36,577 nt of DNA from an uncultured Bacteroides sp. (GTDB lineage Bacteria; Bacteroidota; Bacteroidia; Bacteroidales; Bacteroidaceae), in the NCBI GenBank assembly GCA_946628545.1, contig CAMOWU010000026.1, positions 1 to 36,577 on the forward strand, given 5' to 3'. Below, piece by piece: positions 25,327 through 36,577 of this stretch. A program made the translations under genes and the position numbers. A model generated the notes under the pieces. The model worked only from the letters and a program-made list of their open reading frames with translations. It made no database searches and was not told the DNA's origin. The first letter of the stretch is position 1; every line of letters starts with the position of its first letter.

Positions 25327-25389
25327 CAAGGGCTATAGAGGCTATAGAAGCTATAGATACTATAGAAACTATAGTTGCTATAGCCCTTG
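25327..25389. repeat. 9-bp CTATAGANN array (six units) framed by a 12-bp inverted repeat
   Basis: Six 9-bp units, CTATAG plus three variable bases, run from 25333 to 25386. The ends form a perfect inverted repeat: CAAGGGCTATAG (25327-25338) and CTATAGCCCTTG (25378-25389). The RNA could fold into a hairpin with a loop of 39 nt, but there is no T-run after it. The same unit occurs around 28653-28970. Confidence 0.9.
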
Positions 25390-26550: not shown

Positions 26551-26594
26551 GCCCTGAAAGGGCAATATCTACCAGCCCAGGGCAACGCCCTGGG
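26551..26594. repeat. Paired hairpins GCCCTGAAAGGGC and CCCAGGGC-AAC-GCCCTGGG
   Basis: Two palindromes lie 12 bp apart: 26551-26563 (5-bp stem) and 26576-26594 (8-bp stem). The same two-hairpin module recurs several times inside the element at 28687-28932, and a relative of the first is at 31887-31904. It is a REP-like dispersed intergenic unit. Confidence 0.85.
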
Positions 26595-26662: not shown

Positions 26663-27937
26663 TCACTCATACACAAGAACCGAAAGCCTGTCTTCAGCCA
26701 GCATTTCATTTGCCGTTTGCTGGATGAGTTCAGGGGTGAGTTTGGAGAGCTGTGTCAGCGTGTCTTCCACACCCTCAAAGATATTGTAATGCAAGAAGGA
26801 CTTGGCCATGTCGAGTGCATAGTTCTCGAAATTGTCGCAAGCCACCAGAATCTGCCCCCTCATCTGCTTGATGGCCGCGGCGAGTTGCCGCTGCGTCAGC
26901 GGGGTGGTCATCAACTTGTCAAACTCCTTGCGGATGATGCCCATGCAGCGTTCCACATCCTTGTTGTCGCAACCGAAGTAGAGTCCGAAAGTACCCGTGT
27001 CGGTGTAGTTGGTCAACGAACTCTCCACCGTATAGACCAGTCCATTGTGTTCTCGGAGGGCGATGTTGAGCATGGTGTTCATGCTGGGTCCGGCAATGAT
27101 GTTGTTGAGGAAGTACATGGCGATGCGCCTTTCGTCGCTGGCAGCGTAAGCTCTCCCACCGAGCATCACGTGGGCCTGATGGGTCGATCGGTTCTCCGTC
27201 TGCCTCAACGGGCGGTAATCCTTGAGCGGCATCCTCCATTTATCACCTTGAAAAACAGATCCATGCGTGTCGCTTTCCGTCAACAATCCATCCAGGCTCC
27301 ACTCGGGCATTCCGCCACAATACTTCTCCACAGTGGCAACCACTCGGCTGAAGGGCAGATGACCGAAAACGAAAAACACCATGTTCTCCGGCCTGTAATA
27401 TCGGCGCGTGAACGACAAGGCATCCTCAGTAGTGAATTGTCGCACACGTTCAGCCTTTCCCAGAATATCGTGTCCCAAGGGATGGTCTTGGTAGATCATG
27501 TTCTCAAACTGGTCGAAGATGAGTTCGGCTGGGGAGTCGTTGTAGCTTTCTATCTCCTCGGCGATGACCTCCACTTCCTTGTCGATCTCATGCTGCGGGA
27601 AGGTACTGTGGAAGACGATGTCGGCAATCAGTTCCACAGCTCTGGCGAAATGCTGTTTGGTGAAGGCGGCATAGACCACCGTCTCCTCCTTGTTGGTGTA
27701 GGCATTGAGGTCACCACCCACCGTGTCCATACGGTTGATGATGTGCCATGCCTTGCGTTTCCGTGTGCCTTTGAAAATGAGGTGTTCGCAGAAATGTGCG
27801 ATACCCTGCTCATTGTCGCGCTCGTCTCTCGTCCCAGCGTCTATGGCCAAGCCGCAGTAGGCCACGCTGGTGGGCGATGGCAAGTGAATGATGCGCAGAC
27901 CGTTGGCAAGCGTCTTGGTTTGGCTGGACTCCATCAT
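26663..27937 (-). CDS. M16 (insulinase-like) zinc peptidase
   Basis: The 424-residue protein has the inverted zinc motif H48-F-C-E51-H52 in GIAHFCEHLIFKGT and a downstream EVEVIAEEIESYNDSP stretch with the third ligand (about Glu128), as in the active subunit of M16B processing peptidases. The RGQILV segment and YTVESSL of the C-terminal half also fit. It has a single pair of M16 domains and no signal peptide, so it is probably cytoplasmic. Its first ATG overlaps the sirtuin stop by four bases (ATGA), indicating translational coupling. Substrates are unknown. Confidence 0.9.
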   Translation of the reverse strand: MMESSQTKTLANGLRIIHLPSPTSVAYCGLAIDAGTRDERDNEQGIAHFCEHLIFKGTRKRKAWHIINRMDTVGGDLNAYTNKEETVVYAAFTKQHFARAVELIADIVFHSTFPQHEIDKEVEVIAEEIESYNDSPAELIFDQFENMIYQDHPLGHDILGKAERVRQFTTEDALSFTRRYYRPENMVFFVFGHLPFSRVVATVEKYCGGMPEWSLDGLLTESDTHGSVFQGDKWRMPLKDYRPLRQTENRSTHQAHVMLGGRAYAASDERRIAMYFLNNIIAGPSMNTMLNIALREHNGLVYTVESSLTNYTDTGTFGLYFGCDNKDVERCMGIIRKEFDKLMTTPLTQRQLAAAIKQMRGQILVACDNFENYALDMAKSFLHYNIFEGVEDTLTQLSKLTPELIQQTANEMLAEDRLSVLVYE

Positions 27938-28638
27938 TGCTGTGCGAGCAGAATCTCCATCAATTCCCTCATGCCTTCCGTGGCTCCTTTCTGGATGGTG
28001 TGGATATCCAGTCCGTAAGGCACCTTTACAGGCTTGGGGTCAATGAGGTAAAGTTGGGCATCGCGAGGAACATAACTGACGAGTCCGGCGGCAGGATAAA
28101 CATTGAGTGAAGTACCGATGATGACGAAAATATCAGCCTCCATAGCTGCCTTTGCTGCCTCCTCCATCTTGGGCACAGCCTCACCGAACCAGACGATGAA
28201 AGGACGCAGCTGGCTGCCGTCCTTGGCCTTGTCGCCAATTTCGATGTTGAGCTTGTCGGGAGTAAGGCTCACGATACATCTGGGGTCGTTGGGGTTGGCA
28301 GAGGAGGTGGCTTTCATGAGCTCACCATGCAGGTGGATGATATGCTTGCTGCCAGCACGCTCGTGCAGGTCGTCCACATTCTGGGTGACCACAGTGGTGT
28401 CGAAATGCTCATCGAGCGCAGCCACCAGCTTGTGGGCTTCATTGGGCACGGTGGTGAGTAGTTGCTCACGCCTTTTGTTGTAGAAGTCAATGACAAGGGC
28501 TGGATCACGGTAGTAGCCTTCAATGGAGGCTACTTGCTCTACAGGATATTTCTCCCATAGACCATCTGAGTCTCGAAACGTGCTGATGCCACTTTCTGCC
28601 GATATACCGGCACCTGTGAGAAAAACCAATTTCTTCAT
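27934..28638 (-). CDS. NAD-dependent protein deacylase (sirtuin)
   Basis: The 234-residue Sir2-family enzyme has GAGISAESGISTFRD at the N-terminus, TQNVDDLHERAG and HLHGE with the catalytic His, VWFGEAVP and GTSLNVYPAAGL. FYNKRR carries the Tyr-x-x-Arg pair that in CobB/SIRT5-type sirtuins binds succinyl or malonyl lysine, so desuccinylase activity is possible. The usual zinc-binding Cys pairs after HLHGE are missing; only one Cys lies in that region. The small domain may therefore be zinc-free. It is the first gene of a two-gene leftward unit with the M16 peptidase. Confidence 0.9.
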   Translation of the reverse strand: MKKLVFLTGAGISAESGISTFRDSDGLWEKYPVEQVASIEGYYRDPALVIDFYNKRREQLLTTVPNEAHKLVAALDEHFDTTVVTQNVDDLHERAGSKHIIHLHGELMKATSSANPNDPRCIVSLTPDKLNIEIGDKAKDGSQLRPFIVWFGEAVPKMEEAAKAAMEADIFVIIGTSLNVYPAAGLVSYVPRDAQLYLIDPKPVKVPYGLDIHTIQKGATEGMRELMEILLAQQ

Positions 28639-28652
28639 ATCTTTTTACTATT

Positions 28653-28686
28653 TGATAGACGCTATAGATTTGATAGATGCTATAGA
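28653..28686. repeat. 9-bp array, left part (interrupted)
   Basis: About four 9-bp units (TGATAGACG, CTATAGATT, TGATAGATG, CTATAGAT…) precede the inserted element and continue beyond it at 28933-28970 in the same phase. Confidence 0.85.
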
Positions 28687-28932
28687 TATTCAACTTTAGC
28701 AAGTGCGCCCCGAAGGGGCAACCTTCCTATAGCCCAGGGCACCGCCCTGGGTTTTTGATGTTGTATGTAGTTGCGCCCTGTAAGGGCAAAATCATTTATT
28801 TTATTCATGATGCTGCCCTTTCAGGGCGATTTTTGCCGGTCTTATATATCCCCAGGGTGGTACCCTGGGCTTGGCGATAGTGCCCTTTCAGGGCGATTCT
28901 ATCCGCTCATATTCACTTGCTAAAGTTGAATA
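28687..28932. mobile_element. Non-autonomous inverted-repeat element (MITE-like) carrying REP hairpins
   Basis: Ends are a perfect inverted repeat: TATTCAACTTTAGCAAGTG (28687-28705) and its reverse complement (28914-28932). Inside are six short palindromes in an A-B-A-A-B-A order: GCCCC-gaa-GGGGC (28707), CCCAGGGC…GCCCTGGG (28733), GCCCT-gta-AGGGC (28775), GCCCT-ttc-AGGGC (28815), CCCAGGGT…ACCCTGGG (28851) and a last GCCCT…AGGGC (28882). It encodes no protein. It interrupts a 9-bp tandem array, and removing 248 bp (element plus a short target duplication, AGAT or GA depending on where the ends are set) restores the array in perfect phase, strong evidence for insertion. Confidence 0.8.
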
Positions 28933-28970
28933 GATGCTATAGATGCTATAGAAACTATAGACCTATAAAT
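28933..28970. repeat. 9-bp array, right part
   Basis: Continuation of the CTATAGATG-type units (CTATAGATG, CTATAGAAA, CTATAGACC) after the inserted element. Beyond it, to 29084, the spacer is AT-rich; I see nothing more than a weak GGACAATTGTCC palindrome. Confidence 0.85.
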
Positions 28971-29092: not shown

Positions 29093-29131
29093 CATGATTT
29101 TAGTATTTATAACAAAAAAGCAATCACATTT

Positions 29132-29740
29132 ATGGACAAATTAAGTTATGCTCTGGGGCTTGGCATCGGCCATCAGCTGAAGAGCATGCTCAGAGGTGGC
29201 GACCTCATCGTTGACGACTTCGCCCTGGCCATCAAGGATGTGCTCAGCGATGCCAAGCCCAAGTTCTCAAGTGCAGAGGCACAGCAGATCGTTAACACCT
29301 ATTTCAGCCAGTTGCAAGACACCTTGAATGCCGAGAAGGCAGCCAAAGGCAAGCAAGCCCTTGCTGAGGGCAAGGCTTTCCTGGAGCAGAACGCCCAAAA
29401 AGCCGGTGTGACCGTGACCAAGAGCGGACTGCAGTATGAGGTGCTGCAGCAAGGTAGCGGCAAGCATCCCAAAGTCACCGACACGGTGCGTTGCCACTAC
29501 GAAGGTCGCCTCATCGATGGCACTGTCTTCGACAGTTCATATCGCCGCAACCAACCCGCCGACTTTGGCTTGAGCCAGGTGATCACAGGTTGGACCGAAG
29601 GTGTTCAGCTGATGGCAGAAGGCGCCAAATACCGTTTCTATATCCCTTATATGCTCGCTTATGGCGAGGGCGGATTCGGTGAAACAATTCCTCCTTTCAG
29701 CACACTCATTTTCGATGTGGAACTGATCAAGGTGCTGTAA
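29132..29740 (+). CDS. FKBP-type peptidyl-prolyl isomerase (cytoplasmic)
   Basis: The 202-residue protein has an N-terminal helical dimerisation domain of FkpA/FklB type (MDKLSYALGLGIGHQLKSML) and a C-terminal FKBP domain with the family active-site residues: VRCHYEGRLIDGTVFDSS, VITGWTEG and YIPYMLAYGEGG. It catalyses cis-trans isomerisation before proline and assists folding. It has no signal peptide, unlike the two following genes. I start at the ATG 29132, because the in-frame TTG at 29090 lies inside the -7 box. It is the first of three FKBP genes in a row. Confidence 0.92.
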   Translation: MDKLSYALGLGIGHQLKSMLRGGDLIVDDFALAIKDVLSDAKPKFSSAEAQQIVNTYFSQLQDTLNAEKAAKGKQALAEGKAFLEQNAQKAGVTVTKSGLQYEVLQQGSGKHPKVTDTVRCHYEGRLIDGTVFDSSYRRNQPADFGLSQVITGWTEGVQLMAEGAKYRFYIPYMLAYGEGGFGETIPPFSTLIFDVELIKVL

Positions 29741-31783: not shown

Positions 31784-31785
31784 TT

Positions 31786-31875
31786 TTAGGCGTTAGGCGT
31801 TAGACTTTAGGCGTTAGACTTTAGACCTTAGGCATTAGACCTTAGACTTTAGGCTTTAGCCTTAGACTTTAGAGG
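31786..31875. repeat. 7-bp tandem array, about 13 units (TTAGRCN)
   Basis: Starting three bases after the FKBP stop codon, 7-bp units TTAGGCG, TTAGACT, TTAGACC and similar run without interruption, except one 6-bp unit at 31856-31861. Confidence 0.95.
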
Positions 31876-32991: not shown

Positions 32992-33133
32992 ACTCCCCAT
33001 CGAGGAAAAAACATCCTAAAACTCCCCTCCCCTTCGAGGGGAAGAAACATCCTAAAACTCCCCTCCCCTTCAAGGGGAAGAAACATCCTAAAAACTCCCC
33101 TCCCCTTCGAGGGGAGGGGCAGGGGTGGGGTCA
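32990..33133. repeat. 36-bp tandem array with CCCCT-TCG-AGGGG hairpins
   Basis: Four units of about 36 bp (the first truncated) each contain CTCCCCTCCCCTTCGAGGGG followed by AAGAAACATCCTAAA. The last unit changes to GGGGAGGGGCAGGGGTGGGG. The same unit recurs at 36483-36577, and a diverged copy lies at 4811-4861. Confidence 0.92.
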
Positions 33134-36064: not shown

Positions 36065-36481
36065 ATGACCATAGAAGAAACCCAACAAGAAATCATTGAT
36101 GAGTTCAGCGACTACGATGATTGGATGGATCGCTACCAACTGCTCATCGACTTAGGCAACGACCAAGAGCCACTGCCAGAGGAGTACAAGATTGAAAGCA
36201 ACCTGATCGACGGTTGTCAGAGCCGTCTGTGGCTGCAAGCCGACCTCGTGGATGGCAAAATCCACTATCGCGCAGAAAGCGAGGCACTGATCGTGAAGGG
36301 TATCGTGGCACTGCTCATCCGTGTGCTCAACGACCACACACCCGAAGAAATCCTCGATGCCGACCTCCACTTCATCGATGACATCGGACTGCGCGAACAC
36401 CTATCCCCCACCCGCAGCAACGGCCTGCTCTCGATGCTCAAGCAAATGAAACTCTACGCCATGGCCTTCAAAGCCCTTTAA
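36065..36481 (+). CDS. sufE: SufE-family Fe-S cluster assembly protein
   Basis: The 138-residue cytoplasmic protein matches SufE. The conserved Cys51 in LIDGCQSRLW accepts sulfur from the SufS cysteine desulfurase and passes it to the SufBCD scaffold. YDDWMDRYQLLIDLG at the N-terminus and LSPTRSNGLLSMLKQM at the C-terminus are also family-typical, and the length is normal. No sufS or sufBCD is in the window. It starts directly after the 8-bp array and is followed by the 36-bp array. Confidence 0.93.
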   Translation: MTIEETQQEIIDEFSDYDDWMDRYQLLIDLGNDQEPLPEEYKIESNLIDGCQSRLWLQADLVDGKIHYRAESEALIVKGIVALLIRVLNDHTPEEILDADLHFIDDIGLREHLSPTRSNGLLSMLKQMKLYAMAFKAL

Positions 36482-36482
36482 A

Positions 36483-36577
36483 ACTCCCCCTCCCCTTCGA
36501 GGGGAAAGACATCCTAAAAACTCCCCTCCCCTTCGAGGGGAAAGACATCCTAAAAACTCCCCTCCCCTTCGAGGGGA
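36483..36577. repeat. 36-bp tandem array, continues past window end
   Basis: Three visible units of CTCCCCTCCCCTTCGAGGGG plus AAAGACATCCTAAAAA, the same family as 32990-33133 but with AAAGAC in place of AAGAAAC. It begins right after the sufE stop and is cut by the window edge. Confidence 0.92.

Follow-up and report, generated by a model that had tools for sequence, protein, structure and literature searches.

A 242-bp MITE-like element with probable IS4-type ends that appears to carry the gene-less hairpin flanks of a Y1 transposase system

The window, the stretch of 36,577 nucleotides analyzed here, is contig 26 of a 3.79-Mb draft genome (G000; 238 contigs). Between a sirtuin gene (27934-28638, minus strand) and a gene for an FKBP-type isomerase (29123-29740, plus strand), it contains a repeat element that sits about 50 bp upstream of the sirtuin gene in a 9-bp tandem array of GCTATAGAT units (Table 1). 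Perfect 19-bp inverted repeats lie at 28687-28705 and 28914-28932, and the end pattern is matched twice in the window against 0.03 matches expected by chance. The interval between them holds six GC hairpins, organized as two mirrored triplets with the order small-big-small, and no open reading frame of at least 60 amino acids is found inside the element. The ends, the six hairpins, and the lack of coding capacity were thus as described in the original prediction, which had been made from the letters of the window. The element is short, non-coding, and bounded by terminal inverted repeats, as MITEs are; as RNA, it has a folding energy of -130.9 kcal/mol (z = -12.2), and it matches no Rfam family. 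Short tandem arrays of related 9-bp (GCTATAGAW) or 7-bp (TTTAGAC) units are also seen in several spacers of the window (25332-25383, 28650-28687, 28930-28961, and 31785-31873), and 36-bp repeats with a CCCCTTCGAGGGG hairpin occupy 32993-33115 and 36480-36577, the latter at the contig end; they are apparently another repeat family that breaks the assembly.

Table 1. Features of the element and its surroundings in the window
Feature	Positions	Strand	Basis
Left flank: tandem array of 9-bp GCTATAGAT-type units, up to and including the TAGATA duplication	28650..28688	.	tandem repeats, phase test
Left terminal inverted repeat TTCAACTTTAGCAAGTG; fits the ISPepr1-subgroup end consensus YT-AA-YTT---A	28689..28705	+	
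Hairpin A (small) GCCCCGAAGGGGC	28707..28719	+	
Hairpin B (big) CCCAGGGCACCGCCCTGGG	28733..28751	+	
Hairpin C (small, innermost) GCCCTGTAAGGGC; counterpart of the tnpA-adjacent hairpin in the Y1 locus	28775..28787	+	
Central spacer, C to C'; place of the Y1 tnpA gene in the resident Y1 locus (G000:C33)	28788..28814	.	
Hairpin C' (small, mirrored) GCCCTTTCAGGGC	28815..28827	-	
Hairpin B' (big, mirrored) CCCAGGGTGGTACCCTGGG	28851..28869	-	
Hairpin A' (small, mirrored) GCCCTTTCAGGGC	28882..28894	-	
Right terminal inverted repeat (TTCAACTTTAGCAAGTG on the minus strand)	28914..28930	-	
Right flank: TAGATG duplication (28931-28936), then 9-bp array in phase	28931..28961	.	tandem repeats, phase test
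Isolated hairpin unit of this family, lacking terminal repeats: small GCCCTGAAAGGGC at 26551, big CCCAGGGCAACGCCCTGGG at 26576	26551..26594	+	

Comparison with other copies placed the limits of the element proper at 28689 and 28930 (TTCAA at the start, TTGAA at the end). The outer TA/TA of the "19-bp" repeat comes from the target, which reduces the predicted length of 246 bp to 242 bp, and the proposed 4-bp AGAT or 2-bp GA duplication gives way to an imperfect 6-bp one with a single mismatch (TAGATA at 28683-28688, TAGATG at 28931-28936). A tandem-repeat search found 9-bp units of the CTATAGATG type outside both inverted repeats. The prediction that taking out 248 bp rejoins the array in phase held: this removal gave 9/9 period-9 matches across the rejoined junction, compared with 0 to 4 of 9 for the other lengths from 242 to 253 bp. 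Only the 248-bp removal restores the 9-bp phase, indicating that the array was continuous before the element arrived. The sirtuin and isomerase genes are adjacent in all three available congeners, and the promoter-like block beside the isomerase gene is kept in these spacers, from which the element is absent. The search for empty sites succeeded in part: the same three spacers also lack the 9-bp array and are empty spacers rather than perfect empty sites.

A DNA search of the same genome recovered dozens of homologous places with identities of up to 98%, and the end sequence gave 50 matches at two or fewer mismatches versus none for a reversed-pattern control. About 19 end-bounded copies of 98 to 378 bp could be resolved, of which the short ones (98 to 116 bp) look like internal deletions. 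Perfect target duplications, 7 bp long and once 9 bp, flank 7 of the 18 scorable copies in this genome versus 0 of 306 mismatched flank pairs, and the corresponding numbers in other genomes are 14 of 25 copies and 1 of 600 pairs. The duplications are mostly of 7 and 8 bp, with two of 9 bp, and are 86 to 91% AT. Dispersed copies with target-site duplications far above the control rate are features of a MITE, the window copy itself having the 6-bp duplication with one mismatch, and they bear out the earlier view of a genuine insertion of a MITE-like mobile element; from the target duplications, it is clear that the shell formed by the ends is mobile. A static structured RNA or terminator region, with the array being incidental, would fit the strong folding, but it fits neither this multicopy distribution with duplicated targets nor the empty Rfam search, and its probability is close to nil.

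The ends and the hairpin core are independent of each other. In the same genome, the core without ends occurs as inverted cores, tandem arrays, and single triplets, and a few end-bounded copies carry a different interior of the GCCGCATGGC type. At three loci (L032, L046, and L215, on contigs C2, C13, and C79), the same ends enclose a second kind of interior, with GCCGCATGGCAAAATGCCGTTAGGC-type repeats as its building blocks. Short palindromes of about 70 bp, which differ from one another, are inserted at the same place inside the hairpin A' loop (GGCCTTT^CAGGCC, GGGCTTT^CAGCCC) in two genera, namely, in the L013 element of this genome (contig C94) and in two elements of genome G065 (L376:12366-12688 and L378:2908-3319), as if this loop were a target for another mobile element. 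Several copies (L010, L013) are located within or close to short tandem repeats, which hints at an insertion preference for AT-rich arrays.

The IS4-family ISPepr1 subgroup is characterized by ends of the form YT-AA-YTT---A, direct repeats of 7 to 8 bp, and a preference for AT-rich targets (PMC2266710). When compared with the table in that work, the end TTCAACTTTAGCA conforms to the ISPepr1 consensus, and both TTCAACTTTAGCAAGTG and the variant CTCAACTTTAGCAAGTG match it at every specified position; the AT-rich duplications also have the expected length, apart from the two of 9 bp. Judged by these features, the ends are most likely mobilized by a DDE transposase of the ISPepr1 subgroup. A transposase gene with the same ends, proposed earlier as a sign of mobility, was not found: the draft genome has no PF01609 transposase, none of the 20 inspected IS loci of relatives with PF01609 is bounded by the ends of the element, and a scan of all collected loci for a transposase gene bounded in this way returned none. 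DUF4372-type IS4 elements were rejected as the parent because they have other ends (TTATTGCTGTCCGG). Draft assemblies lose multicopy IS, so the missing parent is weak evidence; at the same time, it leaves a short consensus and the duplication length as the basis of the IS4/ISPepr1 assignment. Several IS families give 7- to 9-bp duplications. This and the missing parent lend some room to mobilization by a DDE family other than IS4/ISPepr1, which is nevertheless the less likely option in view of the complete consensus match and of the agreement in duplication length and AT preference.

The exact end sequence is absent from the 398 other genomes of the family. The idea of species-specific ends was dropped, however, after a looser search seeded with the end of a congener, in which related right ends lie next to the same hairpins (TTCAACTTTCGGATTTGCC), had found related ends in other genera and high-copy families in other genomes. 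In G065, which belongs to a different genus, elements of 241 to 412 bp with ends YTCAAGTTTCGGATTTAGC, many of them with 7- to 9-bp duplications, contain six mirrored hairpins in the same order as the window element. In Segatella copri DSM 18205, a copy of 248 bp is flanked by a 7-bp duplication (GAAGTTA), and further composite copies were found in human-gut contigs. Around an unrelated interior, G017 and G081 show the outer end sequence again, together with 8-bp duplications. The S. copri copy (L406:1430-1730, NZ_CP085933.1) also lies inside a 9-bp repeat, of the GTTAAAGAA type. Global scans with the 17-mer gave mostly chance matches, with the exception of L163 (IMG/VR 3300021399_004848); this contig, listed as viral, has the same 107-bp copy as the C104 locus of the genome under study, with 97.6% identity over 1266 bp. 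L163 carries two tyrosine recombinases beside this host-like sequence and resembles an element integrated in a closely related strain rather than a virus. Viral contigs yielded nothing when searched for the composite end or for the Y1 protein described below.

The interior was assessed with an alignment of 16 sequences from three lineages. In the six local stems, 98.1% of the cells are paired, a value that was reached in 0 of 500 shuffles, and eight pairs have changes on both sides. In the rival long stem, which would pair both halves of the element, the A-A' arm is only 85.6% paired. Mismatches between A and A' are frequent within copies (GCCCCGAAGGGGC on one side, GGCCTTTCAGGCC on the other) while each local stem stays intact, which disfavors the whole-element long stem as the functional fold; the comparison indicates that the local hairpins, and not the long palindrome, are maintained. 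Like REPs, the palindromic units are dispersed and found in inverted and tandem arrangements. By inspection, no 5' GTAG-type guide is present at the hairpin feet, and we therefore do not file them as canonical GTAG REPs; the 3' feet read C/G and then A-A/C-A-T.

Three Y1-domain genes are present in the genome, and one of them connects the hairpins to a transposase family. This gene, L324 (G000:C33:19701-20153, minus strand; PF01797, E = 9e-20), encodes a 151-amino-acid protein whose motifs DHIH, WQ, and YIDNQRKHH are those of the published TnpA_Y1 subclass 1.2 signature (DH[IV]H, WQ, and Y---Q--HH in about 150 amino acids). Inverted copies of the small hairpin of the element bracket the gene at distances of 19 and 10 bp, and the flanks of the gene read outward as small hairpin, big hairpin, and another small hairpin, with no terminal repeats. 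As in a REPtron, a Y1/HUH gene is thus flanked by the same units; around the remaining Y1-like proteins, L062 and L063, the big hairpin was not found. The start-to-start spacings of small to big and small to small hairpins are 36/67 in the window element and 38/69, 36/68, 36/68, and 38/70 beside four Y1 genes (L324, L326, L333, and L432). Given the same hairpins and the same spacing, the interior of the window element corresponds to both ends of a Y1 locus minus the gene. Among homologs in other Bacteroidota, inverted flanks of diverged sequence reach significant similarity in six of nine (P < 0.001), whereas the scores of eight control open reading frames did not exceed 10. In Persicobacter sp. 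JZB09, AACCCTGAAGGGGTT / CGATGGGTGTTAACCCATCG triplets stand on both sides of the Y1 gene. Subclass 1.2 genes across Bacteroidota (L324, L325 to L334, and L432) mostly have GC hairpins on both sides, several of them in the small-big-small order with conserved spacing. The 2018 survey that defined this subclass reported no REPs for it (PMC6006769).

The original prediction that two kinds of repeat are linked here is strengthened by these observations, with hairpins that flank a resident Y1/HUH gene and occur without the ends, and ends that occur with other interiors. Two other readings assign the parts differently. The whole could be a pure REP/BIME-type element that the Y1 (HUH) transposase moves and whose terminal repeats are an outer extension, and the hairpins beside the Y1 gene and the end-free inverted cores and tandem arrays would suit this. 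However, HUH Y1 transposition (IS200/IS605 family) is not known to make target duplications; the perfect 7- to 9-bp duplications at many copies would be unexpected, as would ends that bound interiors without these hairpins, and we regard this explanation as very improbable. Alternatively, the hairpin interior might be native to the IS4-type element, for example, as an expression or structure module, and Y1 genes might have inserted later into hairpin copies. In three congeners without the Y1 gene, a few of the hairpins remain, and the composite occurs in several lineages, as this order of events would allow. Against it, distant Bacteroidota genes of the Y1 subclass (L326, L330, and L432, the last from Persicobacter) are flanked by diverged hairpin pairs of their own, several of which keep the triplet spacing; hence, the hairpins belong with the Y1 gene lineage, and a native interior seems improbable. 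We infer action of the Y1 protein on the hairpins and capture of the core from the Y1 system, not the reverse.

The reading that we prefer, with a probability of roughly 0.8, is that of a composite in which an IS4-type MITE shell encloses both ends of a Y1 REP system without the gene, and the core interpretation of the original prediction is supported in this form. The window element would be a 242-bp non-autonomous MITE-like transposon whose ends, YTSAACTTT[A/C]GCAAGTG, are recognized in trans by a DDE transposase that probably duplicates 7 to 8 (sometimes 9) AT-rich target bases at insertion. Its interior would be no transposase remnant and would instead consist of the left and right flanking repeats of a TnpA_Y1 subclass 1.2 gene with the gene missing, a putative REPIN-like or PATE-like core; the window copy would have landed in the pre-existing GCTATAGAT array. 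On a wider scale, TnpA_Y1 subclass 1.2 may have its own small-big-small REP system across Bacteroidota, with its gene-less double end being standard cargo of IS4-type MITEs in Prevotellaceae (a name taken from the Segatella matches), such that a single element could serve both a DDE transposase, which would copy it as double-stranded DNA, and an HUH transposase, which would process it as a single strand; we hold the chances of this generalization to be even.

It is customary to place REPs and MITEs in distinct classes, each with its own enzymes, and a recurrent element that joins both shows how REP-type hairpins can spread without their own transposase. It also provides a candidate hairpin substrate for a Y1 subclass of previously obscure function and DNA target and explains a common intergenic repeat of this genome, which also occurs in S. 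copri and is seen at many contig ends. We met no earlier description of the composite in the open-access literature. PATEs are gene-less derivatives of IS200/IS605 elements, and the core of the window element resembles them in that it is a Y1 element reduced to its two hairpin ends; unlike PATEs, it is enclosed in the ends of an unrelated transposon and is moved with target duplication. REPINs/BIMEs and the REPtrons of TnpA_REP (RAYT) share with it the inverted pairs of palindromic units, the tandem arrays, and the single-copy Y1 gene flanked by the same units. The present system departs from these in three ways: its Y1 gene belongs by signature to the IS200-like subclass 1.2, for which no REPs were reported (PMC6006769); every unit combines two kinds of hairpin; and the inverted pair often lies inside DDE-type ends with target duplications. 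The BrickBuilt MITE of Porphyromonas gingivalis (PMC4596501) is likewise an intergenic Bacteroidales MITE with a repetitive interior and small inverted ends, but its interior is a 23-nt tandem minisatellite, whereas the window element has a mirrored hairpin triplet with a link to a Y1 gene. ISPepr1-subgroup IS4 MITEs (De Palmenaer et al. 2008, PMC2266710) have the same end consensus, 7- to 8-bp AT-rich duplications, and lack of coding capacity; the window element, for which the parent IS was not found, differs from them in that its interior is made of mirrored REP-like hairpin triplets instead of a deleted transposase.
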